A stretch of DNA of 64,000 bases from Tamlana sp. I1 (GTDB taxonomy: Bacteria > Bacteroidota > Bacteroidia > Flavobacteriales > Flavobacteriaceae). This document shows positions 33,601 to 53,202 of the stretch, one piece after another. The notes beneath the pieces were generated by a model. The model saw nothing but the letters and a program-made list of their open reading frames with translations, ran no database searches and was not told where the DNA came from. The position numbers were made by a program, and so were the translations under genes. The stretch spans positions 186,001-250,000 of the forward strand of contig NZ_JACLAF010000003.1 of NCBI RefSeq assembly GCF_015355625.1, given 5' to 3'. Numbering within the stretch: the stretch's first letter is position 1; each line of letters opens with the position of its first letter.

Positions 33601-36600
33601 AGATACCACAAATCCAACGGCCAGTAACCCAGCAGCCGTAAACGTACAATGTTTAGCGGATGTTCCTGCGGCAGACATTAACGTAGTCACCGATGAAGCC
33701 GATGATAGTGGCATAGCACCTACAGTTGCTTATGTAAGCGATGTTAGCGATAGCAATACCAATCCGGAAACCATCACAAGAACTTATCGTATTGAGGACT
33801 CAGCAGGAAATTCAATAAATGTAGAACAAATCATCAGCATCAACGATACCACAAATCCGACGGCAAGTACGCCAGCTTCAATTCATGTAGAATGTTCTAG
33901 TGATGTGCCTTCAGCAGATATTTTAGTAATTAATGATGCTTCCGATAATTGTAGTATGCCAACCGTAACCTTCATCAGTGATGTAAGCGATGGCAATACC
34001 AATCCAGAAATCATCACAAGAACCTATCGTGTTACTGATGCGGCAGGCAATTCAATTGATTTAGAACAAATCATTACTATAAACGACACCACAAATCCAA
34101 CGGCAAGCACGCCCGCTTCAATTCATGTAGAATGTTCTGGCGATGTGCCTTCAGTAGATATTTCAGTAATTAGTGATGCTTCCGACAATTGTAGCACTCC
34201 AACTGTAACTTTCATCAATGATGTTAGCGATGGTAATACCAATCCAGAAACCATCACAAGAACTTATCATGTAGAGGATGCAGCAGGAAATTCAATTGAT
34301 GTAGAACAAATCATCACAATAAACGATACCGGCGATGTGCCTTCAGTAGATATTTCAGTAATTAGTGATGCTTCCGACAATTGTAGCACTCCAACTGTAA
34401 CTTTCATCAATGATGTTAGCGATGGCAACAATAATCCAGAAACCATCACAAGAACTTATCGTGTTACAGACGCAGCAGGAAATTTTATAGATGTTGCACA
34501 AATCATAACTATAAACGATACCACAAATCCAACGGCAAGCACGCCCGCTTCAATTCATGTAGAATGTTCTGGCGATGTGCCTTCAGCAGATATTTCAGTA
34601 ATTGATGATGCTTCCGATAATTGCAGCACTCCAACTGTAACCTTCATCAGTGATGTTAGCGATAGTAATACCAATCCGGAAACCATCACTAGAACTTATC
34701 GTGTGACGGATGCAGCAGGGAATTTTATAGATGTTGCACAAATCATCAGCATCAATGACACCACTAATCCAACGGCAAGTACACCAGCTTCAATTCATGT
34801 GCAATGTTCTGGCGATGTACCTTCAGCAGATATTTTAGTAATTAATGATGCTTCCGATAATTGTAGTATGCCAACCGTAACCTTCATCAGTGATGTAAGC
34901 GATGGCAATACCAATCCAGAAATCATCACAAGAACCTATCGTGTTACTGATGCGGCAGGCAATTCAATTGATTTAGAACAAATCATTACTATAAACGACA
35001 CCACAAATCCAACAGCAAGTACGCCAGCTTCAATTAATGTACAATGTTCTGGCGATGTGCCTTCAGCAGATATTTCAGTAATAAAAGATGCTTCAGATAA
35101 TTGTAGTACTCCAATTGTAACCTTCATTAGTGATGTTAGCGATGGCAACAGTAATCCAGAAACCATCACCAGAACCTATCGTGTTACAGACGCTGCAGGA
35201 AATTTTATAGATGTTGCACAAATCATCAGCATCAATGACACCACTAATCCAACGGCAAGTACGCCTGCTTCAATTAATGTACAATGTTCTGGCGATGTAC
35301 CTTCAGCAGATATTTTAGTAATTAATGATGCTTCCGATAATTGCAGCACTCCAACTGTAACTTTCATCAATGATGTTAGCGATGGTAATACCAATCCGGA
35401 AACCATCACCAGAACCTATCGTGTAGAGGATGCAGCAGGGAATTTTATAAATGTTGCACAAATCATTACTATAAACGACACCACAAATCCAACAGCAAGT
35501 ACGCCAGCTTCAATTAATGTACAATGTTCTGGCGATGTGCCTTCAGCAGATATTTCAGTAATAAAAGATGCTTCAGATAATTGTAGTACTCCAATTGTAA
35601 CCTTCATTAGTGATGTTAGCGATGGCAACAGTAATCCAGAAACCATCACAAGAACTTATCGTGTAGAGGATGCTGCAGGGAATTCAATTGATGTAGAACA
35701 AATCATCAGCATCAATGATACCACAAATCCAACGGCAAGCACGCCAGCTTCAATTCATGTAGAATGTTCTGGCGATGTGCCTTCAGCAGATATTTCAGTA
35801 ATTGATGATTCTTCCGATAATTGTAGTACTCCAATTGTGACCTTCATCAGTGATGTAAGCGATGGCAATACCAATCCAGAAATCATCACAAGAACTTATC
35901 GTGTAGAGGATGCAGCAGGAAATTTTATAGATGTAGAACAAATCATCACAATAAACGATACCACAAATCCAACGGTAAATTGCGTTTCAGATTTCTCTCA
36001 ATACGTAGCTGCAAATATGCAAACAGCTATGGTAACGTATGCCGCTCCAGTAGGAACCGACAATTGTTCGGCTACCACGACAACGCAAATTGAGGGATTG
36101 CCTTCGGGAGCCGAATTTCCTATAGGGGTAACAACAAACACGTTCGAGATTTCCGATACTTCAGGAAATACAGTTAGCTGTAGTTTTCAGGTTACTATTT
36201 TGTCAGATGAAGACGAAGAGGAGCTTGTTTGCACTATAGATGCAGGAACCGATGTTGAGATTGAACAAGGGGAAGCCGCTCAATTGGAGGCTTTGGTTTC
36301 TAATATTGGTAGTGTGGTTTGGTATCCTAGTACAGGCTTAAGTAATGTCGATATTTTAAACCCAATTGCTACGCCAACCGAAACTACATCGTATACGGTT
36401 TATTACACGAGCAACCAAGGTTGTACTGTAGAAGATACGGTTACGGTATACGTTATTAAAAAACAAGAAGATGAAACTAAATACGGTTTTTCACCAAATG
36501 GCGATGGTGTTAACGATTATTGGGAAATTCACGGTATAGAACAATATCCTAAAAATAAAGTATCCATTTTCAACCGTTGGGGCGATTTGGTTTTTGAAAC

Positions 36601-43765: not shown

Positions 43766-45028
43766 ATGAAACGGACTATATATGTTTATGCCGATTGGCT
43801 GGAGTTAGGTGCTCCTGTATTAGTTGGTACATTATATTCAGAGACTTTAAGGGGGAAAGAAATTTTTTCTTTCGCTTATCATAATGATTGGTTACAATCC
43901 GATTATGCCTATCAGCTTGATCCAGATTTAGACTTGTTTGAAGGTGTACAATATTTGCATGATGAAAAGTCTAATTTCGGCTTGTTTTTAGATTCTTCTC
44001 CAGATCGTTGGGGAAGAGTGCTTATGAAAAGAAGAGAAGCGGCACTAGCTAGAAAAGAAGAAAGAAGAGCAGATAAATTATTCGAAACAGATTTTTTATT
44101 AGGCGTTTTTGATGGACATAGAATGGGGGCTTTACGTTTTAAATTGGATAAAGAAGGCCCTTTTTTAAATGATAATAAAGCGTTAGCAAGTCCACCATGG
44201 ACATCAATAAGGGAATTGGAGCAAATAAGCCTGCGTTTAGAAGATGATGATAGTCTGGATGATCCCGATTATTTAAAGTGGTTACAAATGTTGGTTTCTC
44301 CTGGTTCTTCTTTAGGTGGCGCAAGACCAAAAGCAAGTGTACTTGATAACGATGGTCATTTATGGATTGCTAAATTCCCAAGTAAAAATGACGACGATGA
44401 TATTGGTGGATGGGAAATGGTAACTTACGAATTAGCCATTCAGTCTGGAATTATAATGGCGGACTCTCAAGCTGAAAAATTTAGTAGCAACCAACATACA
44501 TTTTTAACAAAGCGTTTTGATAGAACTAATGCGGGTGAAAGAATTCATTTTGCATCAGCAATGACCCTATTAGGCTATACCGATGGCACAGATGCTTCCT
44601 CGGGAGCTAGCTATCTAGAATTGGTGGATTTTATCACGAAGCATGGCGCAAGCCCTGACAAGGATTTAAAACAACTATGGCGAAGAATTGTTTTTAGTAT
44701 TTGCGTGTCGAATACCGACGATCACTTAAGAAATCACGGTTTTCTATTAACAGACAAGGGTTGGATTTTATCACCAGCCTATGACATAAATCCAGTAGAA
44801 ACGGGAACGGGTTTAAAATTAAATATTTCTGAAGATGATAATGCTTTAGATCTTGATTTAGCTTTAGAAGTGGCTGCTTATTTTAGGATAGAAGAAGCAG
44901 AGGCATCACAAATAATAAACCAAATAACTCAAGTTGTAAGTAATTGGAAGGTAATAGCTAACAAATATGGTTTGTATAGAAGAGAACAAGAATTAAAAGC
45001 TTCTGCGTTTATAAGGATAGAGGGCTAG
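43766..45028 (+). CDS. hipA: HipA-like serine/threonine kinase toxin
   Basis: This 420-residue toxin kinase is of the HipA family; the best-known members phosphorylate glutamyl-tRNA synthetase and cause persistence. It has an N-subdomain-1-like part (FGLFLDSSPDRWGRVLMKRREA) and the loop PGSSLGGARPKA (179-190). The ATP lysine is in WIAKFPS (Lys203). The catalytic loop is SNTDDHLRNHGF with Asp318, and the metal Asp is in SPAYDINP (Asp340). All key residues are present, so the toxin should be active. The true target is unknown. It forms an operon with hipB. Confidence 0.92.
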   Translation: MKRTIYVYADWLELGAPVLVGTLYSETLRGKEIFSFAYHNDWLQSDYAYQLDPDLDLFEGVQYLHDEKSNFGLFLDSSPDRWGRVLMKRREAALARKEERRADKLFETDFLLGVFDGHRMGALRFKLDKEGPFLNDNKALASPPWTSIRELEQISLRLEDDDSLDDPDYLKWLQMLVSPGSSLGGARPKASVLDNDGHLWIAKFPSKNDDDDIGGWEMVTYELAIQSGIIMADSQAEKFSSNQHTFLTKRFDRTNAGERIHFASAMTLLGYTDGTDASSGASYLELVDFITKHGASPDKDLKQLWRRIVFSICVSNTDDHLRNHGFLLTDKGWILSPAYDINPVETGTGLKLNISEDDNALDLDLALEVAAYFRIEEAEASQIINQITQVVSNWKVIANKYGLYRREQELKASAFIRIEG

Positions 45029-45442: not shown

Positions 45443-45802
45443 TTACACACCTAATACAATAGACGGCTCAATACTTAATTTTTTACTTATTTCTCTTGCT
45501 ACTTTTAGAGTAGGTTCACTTTTGCCTGTTAAGTATTCACTAACTCTTGAAGTACTCACACCTAAAAGTTCGGAAAGACGTTTTTGGTTTAATCCCAATT
45601 CTACCATACGCATTTTTATAACTTCTGTTAATGATGGTTTATTAACAGGAAAGTTTTGTTCTTCGTAATCGGCAACAAGGTCAGATAAAATATTGAGCTC
45701 CACATAACCTTTGGCGTTTTGACTTTCTATGTTATTAGAGTCTTGTAAAAGCTCCTCTATACGAGCTAAAATAACGTTATATTGCTTTTCTGTCTGTATC
45801 AT
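45443..45802 (-). CDS. higA: HigA-like XRE antitoxin
   Basis: This 119-residue protein has a C-terminal HTH (about 62-115: VIKMRMVELGLNQKRLSELLGVSTSRVSEYLTGKSEPTLKVAREISKKL). It sits two bases after a HigB-type toxin gene. The toxin-first order, the size and the HTH fit the HigBA family. It would bind the toxin and repress the promoter at 46121-46166. Confidence 0.9.
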   Translation of the reverse strand: MIQTEKQYNVILARIEELLQDSNNIESQNAKGYVELNILSDLVADYEEQNFPVNKPSLTEVIKMRMVELGLNQKRLSELLGVSTSRVSEYLTGKSEPTLKVAREISKKLSIEPSIVLGV

Positions 45803-45804
45803 AG

Positions 45805-46101
45805 CTAAATGTTTTTAATATCGGTAATTTTATCATATTCCGCATGTGTACCAATAAAACATATGTATACTTTTTGAGCGTTAAAAGAAATAATAGCCAC
45901 TAACCTGTAATCGTTACCTTTTATATTAAATACATACCTATTATTACCCACATAATCTACATTATTAAAAGTTTGTCTTATATCATGTAGGTTTTTCCAA
46001 GATTTAGCACTTGTGGTATGATACCAAACATTTAAAGACGTTTCTGCATCGGCGTGTTTTATTGAAAACGCTTGTATTCGTTTATAAGTTACAATACGCA
46101 T
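45805..46101 (-). CDS. higB: HigB-like mRNA interferase toxin
   Basis: This 98-residue toxin starts MRIVTYKRIQAFSIKHADAE, followed by WYHTTSAKSWKNLHDIRQTF, KGNDYRLVAIISF and KVYICFIGTHAEYDKI, the pattern of the HigB_toxin (PF09907) family of ribosome-dependent mRNA interferases. The conserved His near GTHAEYD is present. The start is 20 bases after a -7 element. It forms an operon with higA. Confidence 0.9.
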   Translation of the reverse strand: MRIVTYKRIQAFSIKHADAETSLNVWYHTTSAKSWKNLHDIRQTFNNVDYVGNNRYVFNIKGNDYRLVAIISFNAQKVYICFIGTHAEYDKITDIKNI

Positions 46102-46651: not shown

Positions 46652-47356
46652 TTAGTCTATGTTATAACAATACTGATACAAAGCGCTAAAGTGACTTTTC
46701 ATTAGCTCTTTTGCTTTTTCTGGATCTTGTTCTTTTATGGCTTGAAAAATACCTTGGTGCTCTTGTAAATCTCTACTACTTCTATCTTTAGGACATACAT
46801 GATGCTTTTCGAAATTGGTAATTATTTCTGGAGTAATAATAAGCATCATTCTATTTATGGTACTATTTCCACTCGCTTGGGCAATAGTTAAATGAAATAA
46901 CAAATCTTCTTGAACAGCATCTTCCTTATTAAGTACTTTTTCACTGTAAGCTTCTAGAGCATGAGCCATTTTTTTTAAATCGGAATTTTTTCGTCGTTTT
47001 GCTGCTAAAGTCACTGCATTTAATTCGAGAAGAATTCTAGTTTCTACCAACGATTTAAAATCGGGTTCGTCTAACCTACGAATGTCTTCCATCATGCCAT
47101 TCATGGCAATTTGACCTATATCTGCTACAAAAGTGCCACTTTGTGGCTTAGACATTAATATGCCATAAAATTCCAGTTTATGTATGGCTTCGCGTACACT
47201 GGTTCTACTTACTCCAAATTTATCGGATAACATGCGTTCCGAAGGCAGTTTGTCGCCTGGTTCTAAATTTTTAAAATTTATTAATTCTTGAATTTTAGAA
47301 ATAATATCATTTTGAAGTTCGAGATTTTCATTATTGGTTAGTGGTTCTAACTTCAT
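46652..47356 (-). CDS. GntR-family (FadR/FCD) transcriptional regulator
   Basis: This 234-residue repressor-type regulator has its winged HTH at about 12-80 (KLPSERMLSDKFGVSRTSVREAIHKLEFYGIL). An all-helical FCD ligand domain follows (about 95-228: RILLELNAVTLAAKRRKN, DLLFHLTIAQASGNSTINRM, HQGIFQAIKEQDPEKAKELMKSHF). FCD domains usually bind organic acids or sugar acids through a metal site. It lies downstream of a SusCD pair on the same strand and probably controls it. In other Flavobacteria such regulators accompany uronate (for example alginate) loci; here the inducer is unknown. Confidence 0.92.
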   Translation of the reverse strand: MKLEPLTNNENLELQNDIISKIQELINFKNLEPGDKLPSERMLSDKFGVSRTSVREAIHKLEFYGILMSKPQSGTFVADIGQIAMNGMMEDIRRLDEPDFKSLVETRILLELNAVTLAAKRRKNSDLKKMAHALEAYSEKVLNKEDAVQEDLLFHLTIAQASGNSTINRMMLIITPEIITNFEKHHVCPKDRSSRDLQEHQGIFQAIKEQDPEKAKELMKSHFSALYQYCYNID

Positions 47357-47465: not shown

Positions 47466-47494
47466 CTCTACCGGCTAAAAATAGCCGGTAAGAG
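47466..47494 (-). terminator. Hairpin terminator between susD2 and the GntR gene
   Basis: Perfect 9-bp arms TACCGGCTA (47469-47477) and TAGCCGGTA (47482-47490) have a 4-base loop, extended by CTC/GAG with one bulge. On the minus strand TCTTTAATTG follows. It is about 135 bases after the susD2 stop. Confidence 0.75.
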
Positions 47495-47507: not shown

Positions 47508-47554
47508 ACTAACTCCAATCAAAATAAACAAAATTTGAAATGATTGGAATTAGT
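47508..47554 (-). promoter_or_regulatory. Second hairpin after susD2
   Basis: 14-base arms (ACTAACTCCAATCA at 47508-47521, TGATTGGAATTAGT at 47541-47554) match at 13 of 14 positions, with a 19-base loop. It precedes the terminator stem on the transcribed strand and may protect the 3' end of the susCD message. Confidence 0.6.
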
Positions 47555-49202: not shown

Positions 49203-52200
49203 TTAAAATGTTAAGTTTAAAGTAAAACTGTAGGACCTAGCTGTTGGATAAGATCCAAAATCAAAACCTCTAGTTGTGTTTGTCGCCTGGTTGTTACCAT
49301 TAGTTCCCCCTTGAGCACCAAAGTAGCTTACTTCAGGATCTAAACCAGAGTAATTTGTCCATGTCAATAAATTTTGTCCGCTTATTGAAAGTCTTAATTT
49401 TTCTACACCAATATTTTCTAAAACTTTTGAAGAAAAGTTATAACCTAAAGCTAAGTTTTTCAATCTAACATAACTTCCGTCTTCTACGAAACGAGATGAA
49501 ATCTCTCTAGTACTAAAATTACCTACACGCGGTTGGTCTGTATCCGTATTAGTAGGAGTCCAAGCGTTGTTATAATAATCGTAGGTTGTATTAGAATCTC
49601 CGTTATTTAATTGTACTTGAGTCATATTAAAAATTTCGTTACCCTGAGAACCTTGGAAAAAGATGTTTAAATCCCAGTTTCTATAAGTAAAGTTATTTGT
49701 GAAACCCCAAGTAAAATCTGGATTTGGGTTACCAATCATCGTTCTATCAGCATCATCAATATCACCATTACCATCTAAATCTCTAAATAAAGGCTCACCT
49801 GGTATTGGGTTGCCAGCATCTCTTGAAGCTGGAATTACAGCAGTTCCATTAGGAAGTGTTCCTCCTTGATATACACCTACATAATCATAACCCCAGAACT
49901 GTCCAACTTCTTCTCCTTCTCTTAAGATAAAAGTTTCACTTAAACTAAAGTATGATGGTGCTCCATTCCCAAACCAATCATCTCCGTTAATTAAAGAAGT
50001 AACTGTGTTGGTGTTCTTAGAAAACACAAAGTCTGTAGTCCAAGTAAATTTATCGTTACTAATATTGTTAGTCGTTAAAAACACTTCAAATCCAGTATTG
50101 TTAATAGCCCCAGCGTTAACTAGTGATGAGTCATTATAAAACCCTAAGTAATCAGGTTGACCTCTATTTACCATGATTAAATCTTCAGTATCGATATTAT
50201 AGTAATCTAAAGAAAGTGTAATTCTATTCTTTAAGAAACCTAAATCCAAACCAAAGTTAGATTGATAAGACTTCTCCCATTCTAAATCTGGGTTTGCCAT
50301 TTGATAAGGAGTAATTGCAGCTACAGTACTACCAGCGTTTGAAGCATAAATAACTTCTGCACTAGCTAAAGATTGGTAAGGCGCAATAGAAGGGTTACCT
50401 GTTTCACCATAACTAGCTCTTAACTTTAAGTTAGAAATTATGTTGCTATCTTTTAAGAAATCTTCATTAGAAATTTTCCATCCTAAAGCTCCTGATGGGA
50501 AAATAGCATATTTCTTATTTGCTGCAAAGTTTGAAGCTCCGTCACGTCTTACTGTAGCAGTAAATAAGTATTTGTCGTTATAATCGTAGTTAATTCTACC
50601 AAACAAAGACTGAATAGTACGTTCATTTTTATAAATTTGACCTGAAGTTGGTTGAATTAAATTAGTTGCAGTATACAACCCATAGTAAGAAAATGAATCA
50701 GAAATAGTACCCGTTCCTTCATTATAAGAGCTTTGGTTTATATTTCTCTGGTACGAATAACCTCCTAATAAGGTTAAATTACCTTTACCTATTTCTTTGT
50801 TATAAGTTAAATAGTTTTCACTTAATACACTATTCGATTTCCAATTTTGCATAATAGCTCTACCTTGCTCTGTACTTGCCGTAACTTTTAAGGTACGAGG
50901 CATATACATTCCTCTAAAAATATTTTCTGTACTAATACCAAAAGTTGTTTTGAAATTTAATCCTTCTAAAATATCATAGCTAGCATAAAGATTAGCTCTG
51001 AAATTATCAATCTCAGTATCATCATCTCTTTGAGTTGCTACAGCGTATGGGTTATCTACCTCATCACCAATTTGATCATTTGTTGTAAATGTTCCATCAG
51101 GATTATACACACCTTTGTCTGGAGCAAATCGCATTGCCAAAGAAACTACATCATCACCACCTACTGTTACCGAACCATTAGACTGCGTAGTTACACCGCT
51201 TTTCTTGCTTGTGCCACCAACTAAGTTTACACCAACGTTTAATTTGTCTGTAACTTGAGCATCTACATTAGATAAAAAGGTAAGCCTTTCATAGTCAGAA
51301 TTTACTAAAACACCATCTTGACCATAGTAAGTCGCTGAACTATAAAACTTAATTTTATCAGAACCCCCAGAAACAGACAATTGGTGGTTTGCAACACTAC
51401 CATTTCTATAAATCATGTCTTGCCAATCTGTATTCTCAGCCCCTTGAATGTAAGGATTTGAATTGTTTCGGTTTACACGGATATCATTTTGATAGTCTGC
51501 AAAATCATCTGCATTTAACAAATCTAATCTGTTAGAATTAGCTTGTATCTGGTATGTTGAATTAAAATCAACAGTTATTTTACCTGTTTTACCTTTTTTA
51601 GTTGTTACTAAAACTACACCATTAGCAGCTTGAGAACCATAAATCGCAGTTGCAGAGGCATCTTTTAAGATTTCCATAGACTGAATATCTCCAGGTTGCG
51701 GCATAGTTGCCCCTACAAACCCATCTACAACAATAAGCGGTGAACTACTAGCATTAATTGAAGTGTTACCTCTAATTTTAATGCTTATAGGTGCACCTGG
51801 CTCACCACCATTATTAGACTGTACATCTACACCTGCTGCACGACCTTGTAGCGCCTGTGAAGCGTCTAACACAGGGAATGCTGTTAATTCTTCTGTTTTT
51901 ACGGAAGAAACAGCTCCGGTTATGTCACTCTTTTTACGAGATCCATATCCTACTACGACTACTTCGTCAAGTTGACTAGCGTCCTCCATAAGCGTAATGC
52001 TTAATGTTTTTTGTCCGTTTATAGCAACTTCTTTAGAAGAATAACCTAAGGTAGAAAACACTAAAATATCACCATTTTTTACCTCAATAGTAAAAGAACC
52101 ATCAAAATCGGCATAAGTACCTGTTTTGGTGTTTTTAATAATGACATTAGCTCCAGTAATGGGCACATTTTTATCGTCGGTTATTTGACCAGTCAAGGTA

Positions 52201-52274
52201 TAACCGCCCTGTGCAAATAATGTGATATTGAATAACAATATCATCGTTAATGTTAATTTAGTTTTTAAATTCAT
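49203..52274 (-). CDS. susC: SusC-family TonB-dependent outer-membrane transporter (second locus)
   Basis: This TonB-dependent channel of about 1023 residues has a signal peptide (MNLKTKLTLTMILLFNITLFAQ) and a CarboxypepD_reg-like domain (TLTGQITDDKNVPITGANVI). The plug starts LDEVVVVGYGSRKKSDITGAVSSV and includes IKIRGNTSINASSSPLIVVDG and DASATAIYGSQAANGVVLVTTK. The barrel ends ARSYSFTLNLTF. The frame opens nine codons earlier at 52301, but ATG 52274 opens directly into the signal peptide. A predicted promoter about 320 bases upstream gives an unusually long leader. Confidence 0.95.
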   Translation of the reverse strand: MNLKTKLTLTMILLFNITLFAQGGYTLTGQITDDKNVPITGANVIIKNTKTGTYADFDGSFTIEVKNGDILVFSTLGYSSKEVAINGQKTLSITLMEDASQLDEVVVVGYGSRKKSDITGAVSSVKTEELTAFPVLDASQALQGRAAGVDVQSNNGGEPGAPISIKIRGNTSINASSSPLIVVDGFVGATMPQPGDIQSMEILKDASATAIYGSQAANGVVLVTTKKGKTGKITVDFNSTYQIQANSNRLDLLNADDFADYQNDIRVNRNNSNPYIQGAENTDWQDMIYRNGSVANHQLSVSGGSDKIKFYSSATYYGQDGVLVNSDYERLTFLSNVDAQVTDKLNVGVNLVGGTSKKSGVTTQSNGSVTVGGDDVVSLAMRFAPDKGVYNPDGTFTTNDQIGDEVDNPYAVATQRDDDTEIDNFRANLYASYDILEGLNFKTTFGISTENIFRGMYMPRTLKVTASTEQGRAIMQNWKSNSVLSENYLTYNKEIGKGNLTLLGGYSYQRNINQSSYNEGTGTISDSFSYYGLYTATNLIQPTSGQIYKNERTIQSLFGRINYDYNDKYLFTATVRRDGASNFAANKKYAIFPSGALGWKISNEDFLKDSNIISNLKLRASYGETGNPSIAPYQSLASAEVIYASNAGSTVAAITPYQMANPDLEWEKSYQSNFGLDLGFLKNRITLSLDYYNIDTEDLIMVNRGQPDYLGFYNDSSLVNAGAINNTGFEVFLTTNNISNDKFTWTTDFVFSKNTNTVTSLINGDDWFGNGAPSYFSLSETFILREGEEVGQFWGYDYVGVYQGGTLPNGTAVIPASRDAGNPIPGEPLFRDLDGNGDIDDADRTMIGNPNPDFTWGFTNNFTYRNWDLNIFFQGSQGNEIFNMTQVQLNNGDSNTTYDYYNNAWTPTNTDTDQPRVGNFSTREISSRFVEDGSYVRLKNLALGYNFSSKVLENIGVEKLRLSISGQNLLTWTNYSGLDPEVSYFGAQGGTNGNNQATNTTRGFDFGSYPTARSYSFTLNLTF

Positions 52275-52301
52275 TGTGGTTTTGTTAATTATGTTTGACA
52301 T

Positions 52302-53202
52302 ATTTTATGCTTGTTCAAAGCATTTAAAATAAAATTGAGAGTTTTCTCAATTCTTTTTATTTCACCAATACGACTTTCTTCAGCATTATTAAAGTGCTTT
52401 TTTAGAAGAAAACTTAAAAAGTAAAATATTACATGTTTTTTGGAAGTACTTCTTACTTGTTTTACATGCAAGAAATACGCTTTTGAAAAGAGCAGGTTTT
52501 TACCCACCTGTTTAGTGTGCTAATCTTTGTTTTGAATCATTCTGTTTAGTTTTAGTTTTTTTGGTTTTCCAGAGTGGTTTCCCAATCTGGTTTTCCAAAT
52601 GTATGTTATTTTTTTGTTAAAAAAAAAGTGATTTTAGAATTTAACCTTTCGCTTCTTCAATTTTAACAGCCCAAAAAATGGCTGTTAACAGCCCTTATCT
52701 CACGTGTATCAAGCAAATAGGCCAATTTTTGCAGTCTGTATTTTTTTTAAGTTAAAATGTGATTTATTATAAAAAAAATGGTTTTCGTATTGAATTATTC
52801 GGATTTTTTAACAGGATTTTTTGAGACTTCAAATTCCATTTTAATTGAAAAAACTAGGTTTGTTTTATTTAAAATGAAGTATTTTTTTACAATTTTATTC
52901 GAAAATTTATGCTTGCATCTGCTATGGAAAAGATGTCTGATTTAAGCGTTTAAAAAAAGTAATTTAAACCCCTAAACTAGATTAAAAAATAAGCACTATT
53001 AATGTGATATTTTTCAATGCTGATATGTGTATTTTATAAGAAGAAATTTCAACTCTTGTTTGTTGAAGAAAACATACTATATATTATTATTTCCTGTTTT
53101 TATAAAACCTAAGAGAAGACCGATTTAAAGCTAAAAACCTGTATTTTATCGGATTATTTTGTTTTTTACAGACGTTTTTATAGTGAAATTACATATCATA
53201 AT
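52302..53202. other. Long non-coding leader and spacer upstream of the second susC
   Basis: This 0.9-kb AT-rich region lies between susC and the divergent small-protein gene. Besides the promoter/operator (52562-52603) it contains a hairpin TAACAGCC/GGCTGTTA (52664-52671, 52680-52687). The possible 72-codon frame near 52289-52507 overlaps the susC start and has no recognisable features. No gene is supported. Confidence 0.55.
52562..52603 (-). promoter_or_regulatory. Second susC promoter with triple TGG-N4-CCA operator candidate
   Basis: Three direct copies of TGGTTTTCCA-type boxes (52562-52571, 52575-52584 with TGGTTTCCCA, 52588-52597) have an exact 13-base period. The last overlaps the -7 element TACATTTG (minus strand, 52596-52603). 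GntR/FadR-family sites often have TGG...CCA ends, so the nearby GntR/FCD protein is the likely ligand. Confidence 0.65.

Follow-up and report, generated by a model that had tools for sequence, protein, structure and literature searches.

The alginate utilisation system and its regulator AusR were reportedly described by Dudek et al. in 2020. In Zobellia galactanivorans, AusR is characterised as a GntR protein that represses most alginate genes through single, double or triple operators, from which degradation products keep it away (PMC7874173, PMC8286568). Escherichia coli NanR is described as placing three dimers on the three close repeats of its (GGTATA)3 operator, where binding is cooperative and a defined spacing is needed (PMC8012715), and UxuR exemplifies a class of FadR-subfamily sites in which GT and AC lie 2 nt apart (PMC4494728). 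At susC genes of Bacteroides, the DonS family comprises cis-antisense RNAs of 78-128 nt (PMC7366714).

The operon compared with these systems here is a susC-susD-gntR group of Tamlana sp. I1 (Flavobacteriaceae). It lies in the window, by which is meant the whole 64,000-nucleotide stretch of DNA that was analysed, and its genes and promoter features are the following.

46652-47356, minus strand: gntR, predicted AusR-type GntR/FCD repressor (Pfam), 66% identical to its paralogue at the main alginate locus of this genome
47628-49178, minus strand: susD
49203-52301, minus strand: susC, SusC/RagA TonB-linked outer membrane protein
52562-52571, unstranded: box 3, putative distal operator, TGGTTTTCCA, predicted +21 to +30
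52575-52584, unstranded: box 2, putative operator, TGGTTTCCCA, predicted +8 to +17
52588-52597, unstranded: box 1, putative promoter-proximal operator, TGGTTTTCCA / TGGAAAACCA, predicted -6 to +4
52591, minus strand: predicted susC transcript start, from a -7 box at -12 to -5
52596-52603, minus strand: -7 element TACATTTG (TAnnTTTG), sharing two bases with box 1

The three TGG-N4-CCA boxes, TGGTTTTCCA at 52562-52571, TGGTTTCCCA at 52575-52584 and TGGTTTTCCA again at 52588-52597, follow one another in steps of exactly 13 bp, as a first-pass annotation of the window had described, and Tandem Repeats Finder returns a period of 13, 2.9 copies and a score of 48. The same annotation had the boxes running into the -7 element about 300 bases upstream of susC. 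They do overlap that element and do lie upstream, but the distance measured from the annotated start at 52301 is 261 bp, and in the sense of transcription the array begins in the -7 box and extends downstream, so that it is predicted to cover the transcript start and the first ~30 transcribed bases. The minus strand, which is the susC strand, reads TACATTTGGAAAACCA-GAT-TGGGAAACCA-CTC-TGGAAAACCA, with the last two bases of TACATTTG inside the first box; the start was placed at 52591 because the TAnnTTTG box of Flavobacterium psychrophilum occupies -12 to -5 (PMC9723704). Since the window holds 19 matches to TGG-N4-CCA against 9.4 expected from shuffles, single boxes carry little weight and it is the spaced array that counts. 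We regard it as highly likely that the three boxes form a tandem operator array of an AusR-type GntR/FCD repressor, controlling a satellite operon for the uptake of alginate (oligo)saccharides. The array, its targets, its conservation in the family, its rigid spacing, its overlap with the -7 element and its restriction to genomes with GntR were all computed directly.

The genes susC, susD and gntR share one strand, with gaps of 24 bp between susC and susD and of 271 bp between susD and gntR, and Pfam finds both the GntR and the FCD domain in the regulator that the first-pass annotation had placed downstream of susCD. Because neither a box (one mismatch allowed) nor TAnnTTTG was found in the 271-bp gap, co-transcription of gntR with susCD is likely. 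The gap also contains two inverted repeats, at 47466-47494 and at about 47514-47547 (located by eye), one of them GC-rich, which may uncouple gntR from susCD. The susCD locus is labelled enzyme-less on the basis of Pfam for the seven ORFs around the operon and of sequence reading for the others. Next to gntR lie a HigB-type toxin gene with an HTH partner (45443-46101) and a HipA-like gene (43766-45028); the other flank carries PdxA and, presumably, riboflavin synthase, which was assigned by reading of its sequence. Elsewhere in the window, 240-bp tandem repeats occur at 33740-35975 within a 2049-aa ORF.

Across the 4.04-Mb genome (32 contigs), a search for two boxes separated by 3 bp, with at most one mismatch, gave 14 matches per strand compared with 4 for the reversed pattern. 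Nine of the 14 are exact and resolve into six arrays, which precede two susC genes, two PL6 genes, one PL17 gene and a gene for a secreted protein of the alginate locus.

Window: exact triple before susC
C29:66260: exact triple before susC
C29:73127: exact triple before a 316-aa secreted protein in which no lyase domain was found
C29:53994: exact two-box array before PL6
C29:68920: exact two-box array before PL17
C30:120357: exact two-box array before PL6

Three of the five one-mismatch matches also precede lyases (PL6 on C11, PL7 on C31 and PL7 on C32), and the other two fall within unrelated ORFs. A failure to find further copies near plausible target genes, together with a lack of GntR binding, had been named as grounds for discarding the operator reading, and arrays were found before PL6, PL17 and PL7 lyases; the alginate theme proposed for the regulon is likewise borne out, as these further copies precede alginate genes. 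Contig C29 carries a complete alginate locus with a second GntR, the 66% identical paralogue listed above. When the gap was allowed to vary, the search recovered the same arrays and added three pairs elsewhere with wide spacing, as well as a single step of 14 bp. That step lies at C31:26040-26076 (L044:1501-1537) in the array before a CBM6-PL7 lyase and is a natural departure from the 13-bp spacing. A loose pattern, TGGTTTYCCANNNTGG with two mismatches, was dropped as evidence because its 150/141 matches in the genome barely exceed the 113/110 of its control.

At the level of the family, 83 of 397 genomes contain the exact triple. The idea that the repeat arose by chance and has no function, to which the abundance of single boxes might seem to lend something, deserves almost no credence, given that the reversed triple has no match in any of the 397 genomes and that arrays in the examined loci lie solely outside ORFs. 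A relative of the window GntR (E <= 1e-40) is encoded in 103 of the genomes, including every one of the 83 with a triple; none of the 294 genomes without GntR has a triple, and 20 of the 103 with GntR have no exact triple. The boxes could in principle serve another regulator, for instance a LacI-type protein beside the main-locus KDG genes, where an ORF at L049:4166-5227 was assigned to that family by reading of its sequence. This is very improbable, as the triple is confined to genomes with GntR and as TGGT-N2-ACCA corresponds to the 2-nt class of FadR-subfamily sites described to include UxuR (PMC4494728). The earlier reading of the boxes as GntR/FadR-subfamily sites is supported, with the GntR of the operon as the likely regulator. 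In the Flavobacteriaceae, TGG-N4-CCA repeated every 13 bp would offer a simple genome signature for alginate regulons.

Box spacing was examined in 919,855 bases from 51 loci that surround GntR relatives (none titled Zobellia); these loci are not independent, since they were selected by GntR and are related to one another. Box pairs no more than 45 bp apart in these loci comprise 113 at 13 bp, 43 at 26 bp, 8 at 39 bp and one at 15 bp, with no other distance represented, and ten shuffles of the loci gave a mean of at most 0.2 pairs per distance. Together with the window and three stretches of its own genome, the loci contain 76 arrays with at least two boxes, of which 38 are double, 34 are triple, 3 are quadruple and one has eight units. 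None of the 76 arrays lies in an ORF of at least 90 aa, compared with 213 of the 257 single boxes. The sequence TAnnTTTGG occurs at the promoter-proximal box in 59 of the 76 arrays, one unit upstream in 5 and at neither place in 12; the same test at the far end of the array succeeds once in 76. Base frequencies give TTGGT(A/T)AACCA(A/G) as the consensus of first boxes, a 12-bp palindrome, so that a 13-bp step exceeds the unit by a single base. At its outermost positions the palindrome is less well conserved, with T in 93% and A in 76% of first boxes, and T in 61% and A in 65% of later boxes. The arrays precede 48 proteins of SusC size (1,009-1,084 aa; called susC from size, N-terminus and sequence matches), 4 gntR genes, 4 genes of the Tamlana genome other than susC, and 20 others, among which PL6 accounts for 6, PL7 for 6, PL17 for 4 and PfkB kinase for 3. 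The eight-unit array, from an uncultured Maribacter (L085:4875-4975), ends in six identical units and seems to grow by 13-bp duplication.

The first-pass annotation had taken the period of 13 to suggest overlapping, alternative binding; on such a reading the boxes would compete for one or two dimers and would not all be filled together. At 10.5 bp per turn, 13 bp rotates successive sites by ~86 degrees, placing neighbouring dimers on different sides of the helix, and the weaker conservation of the outermost bases in later boxes would agree with competition. The spacing nevertheless departs from 13 bp once in 51 loci, and arrays run to 2, 3, 4 and 8 units; neighbouring boxes need not share bases, as the consensus unit is a 12-bp palindrome; and NanR, itself a GntR/FCD protein, is described as setting three dimers on three close repeats (PMC8012715). 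Competition between the boxes therefore appears improbable, and the rigid spacing and long arrays favour simultaneous, side-by-side occupancy in a fixed geometry. Such a rigid pitch would allow a direct test of how several dimers of a GntR/FCD repressor are arranged on DNA.

As to binding, dimer stoichiometry, inducer, transcript start and substrate, we infer the following. The repressor would be the product of gntR at 46652-47356, its main-locus paralogue, or both. When alginate breakdown products are absent, a row of adjacent dimers with a fixed 13-bp repeat would extend from the -7 box over the transcript start and sterically block initiation of susC-susD(-gntR), the dimer on box 1 covering the -7 box and the start and those on boxes 2 and 3 adding cooperative strength. 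An alginate-derived intermediate would then free the dimers from the array, and the locus would act as a satellite of a larger alginate regulon. If so, the array would indicate both the regulator and the substrate class of a transporter operon that carries no enzymes.

It is also possible, if rather unlikely, that the window GntR, as a separate paralogue, answers to an inducer of its own and acts mainly at a target of its own, so that the two regulators read the same box in response to different sugars and the locus is not simply controlled by alginate. The genome does encode two paralogues at 66% identity, and in a tree of 53 GntR proteins (bootstrap not settled) the window protein falls within Maribacter (100/91) and the C29 protein with Cellulophaga (91/88); in addition, the best segment shared by the window and main-locus susC shows 29% identity. 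Against this, box and spacing are the same at both loci, and in Lacinutrix, Joostella and Winogradskyella susC and susD of the window type likewise follow an array of this kind, with a gntR of this kind nearby. The identities to these three genera are 60-66% for susC and susD, and the window susC is about a third identical to most others. Transfer of the whole locus from Maribacter was considered for the nested gntR and rejected, as susC and susD have their nearest relatives in those three genera; because the affinities of the genes differ, we claim no more than that the locus, judged from its sequences, is a mosaic. Control of the window operon by alginate remains the preferred reading.

The long leader had been taken as a sign of tight repression. 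Its length is no evidence of this, since the distance from array to start is 113-321 nt in 46 of the 48 susC arrays and since the leaders of many relatives contain a separate conserved element. An alignment of 19 of the 48 susC leaders revealed a conserved AAAAAAAAGGAYAGGUGCACGCCUAUCCUUUU, followed by UUACUUC-loop-GAAGUAA, and a pattern search found this two-hairpin element in 29 of the 48. Twenty-eight elements, one near-duplicate being excluded, were aligned for a structure test and a covariance model. In the proposed structure 94.1% of pair cells are paired, compared with 50-62% when the structure is slid, and shuffles average 92.4%, a value they reach because the alignment columns hardly vary. 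Nine pair cells have changed on both sides, which none of 500 shuffles attains; the covarying pairs number 2, a figure matched by 272 of 500 shuffles, and there are fewer pair types than in shuffles. With columns that hardly vary and so few covarying pairs, conservation of the element is strong and covariation is thin. Hairpin 1 might accordingly be a DNA palindrome for a second regulator, in which covariation would look just as thin.

The covariance model matched the susC leader strand in 32 loci (E < 0.001), of which 28 supplied its own training sequences. Among 249 family genomes, 47 were matched, some perhaps of the same species as training sequences, and all 47 have GntR; the GntR genomes among the 249 number 64 if, as the number suggests, these are genomes G000-G248. 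In the Tamlana genome the C29 susC leader is the one strong match (74 bits), the next place scoring 35 bits (E 0.05), and its element lies at L050:4094-4179 on the minus strand. Rfam 15 at gathering thresholds left the leader element unmatched in eight relatives' loci, where its matches were to tRNA and Flavo-1 elsewhere; a Flavo-1 RNA (RF01705) occurs at L079:18903-19004, near the gntR locus of Aquimarina mytili.

The antisense strand of these leaders was examined for promoter and terminator features. Of 54 leaders, 45 carry CAAAnnTA, the -7 box in antisense orientation, between 20 and 160 nt beyond hairpin 1, compared with a mean of 9.2 and a maximum of 18 in shuffles. In all 45 it falls at 56-81 nt, a band set after the positions had been seen, where shuffles average 1.9 and reach at most 7. 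Within this band the sense -7 pattern occurs in 1 of 54 leaders and two control patterns in 7 and 0 of 54; in the wider stretch the control ATnnAAAC is itself raised, at 18 of 54 against a shuffled mean of 8.8. A -33 TTG of the antisense promoter showed no preferred spacing in leaders with the element. A terminator scan of one locus, L050, gave a terminator-like site on the antisense strand and none on the sense strand, and the antisense RNA predicted in the 45 leaders would be 80-106 nt long (median 97), a length inside the range given for the DonS family. Of 42 long leaders, 36 have a mini-ORF directly before hairpin 1, compared with 7 on average and 16 at most in shuffles (12 short leaders uncounted). 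As the leaders are related, the shuffles overstate their independence. The mini-ORFs mostly have 2-6 codons, often read ATG-AAA-..-stop and lie 15-35 nt before hairpin 1 (for example in L053, L057 and L085). They raised the idea that hairpin 1 is a sense attenuator, which is disfavoured by the short sense T-run at the hairpin (median 4); the A-run, read as a T-run on the opposite strand, is longer (median 7), and an antisense terminator is for this reason preferred.

The window leader has the following features.

52302-52591, minus strand: predicted susC leader of ~290 nt, folding better than 200 shuffles (z -4.4)
52520-52540, minus strand: mini-ORF MIQNKD-stop, near the usual mini-ORF place of long leaders with the hairpin element
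52443-52516, minus strand: possible diverged two-hairpin leader element, 15.8 bits

The window array is among the 16 of 48 susC arrays without an element match at E < 0.001, and the normal search did not find the two-hairpin element in the window leader. The 15.8 bits come from an unfiltered search of 401 bases, in which the expected place compares with 14.8 bits at an unrelated one. The leader has no A-run ahead of the hairpin and no CAAAnnTA. A match there to Rfam mir-890 was set aside as chance-like (E 0.04, 23 bits where the gathering score is 56).

On balance we lean slightly towards a two-layer switch at alginate susC genes of Flavobacteriaceae, in which GntR dimers in a rigid 13-bp lattice over the start would be combined with a conserved DonS-like antisense RNA gene in the leader (~97 nt, with its own -7 box, two hairpins and a terminator whose T-run is conserved), often preceded by a mini-ORF; the window copy would have kept the operators and lost the antisense gene. 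Both hairpins are so strongly conserved in sequence that further targets of the RNA, or a protein bound by it, are suggested. The leader element with its predicted antisense RNA may be new, in the sense that the titles and abstract openings of the literature searched, together with PMC11697453 and PMC7366714, contained no report of either at a flavobacterial susC. If the antisense RNA is real, control of glycan uptake of the DonS type would extend from gut to marine bacteria.

Compared with the described systems, the relatives and the C29 locus, though not the window, would resemble DonS in a predicted divergent antisense RNA of 80-106 nt in the susC leader, and the window leader lacks the DonS-like pair of an antisense -7 box and an antisense T-run. 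They differ from DonS in their family, Flavobacteriaceae, in a susC behind a GntR array and in a strongly conserved sequence. UxuR-class sites, as PMC4494728 presents them, share the GT and AC 2 nt apart in a TGGT..ACCA-like palindrome, and 13-bp arrays are absent from that description; the window GntR scores 64 of 442 bits against the NCBIfam Uxu regulator model, far under its cut-off, and no NCBIfam regulator model reached cut-off among the 25 matches listed. NanR, in the account of PMC8012715, is likewise a GntR-type repressor with three close tandem sites, but binds direct hexamer repeats with dimers about half a turn apart, whereas here palindromes stand at 13 bp: the window units are palindromic TGG-N4-CCA and not direct GGTATA repeats. 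In addition, NanR is said there to have a 32-residue N-terminal extension, and no such extension was found in the window GntR, whose Pfam domain match begins at residue 15. The closest likeness is to AusR, described as a GntR-family alginate repressor of a marine flavobacterium with one, two or three operator copies. In Tamlana, too, a GntR-family regulator is encoded with alginate or susCD genes, and double and triple copies precede alginate genes; the differences are that the susC-susD-gntR operon is a satellite in a genome that encodes another gntR, and that arrays of 4 and 8 units occur among the 51 loci. That the array is of the published AusR operator type we infer from system, taxon and copy number, and on this comparison it very probably belongs to a known kind, that of AusR.
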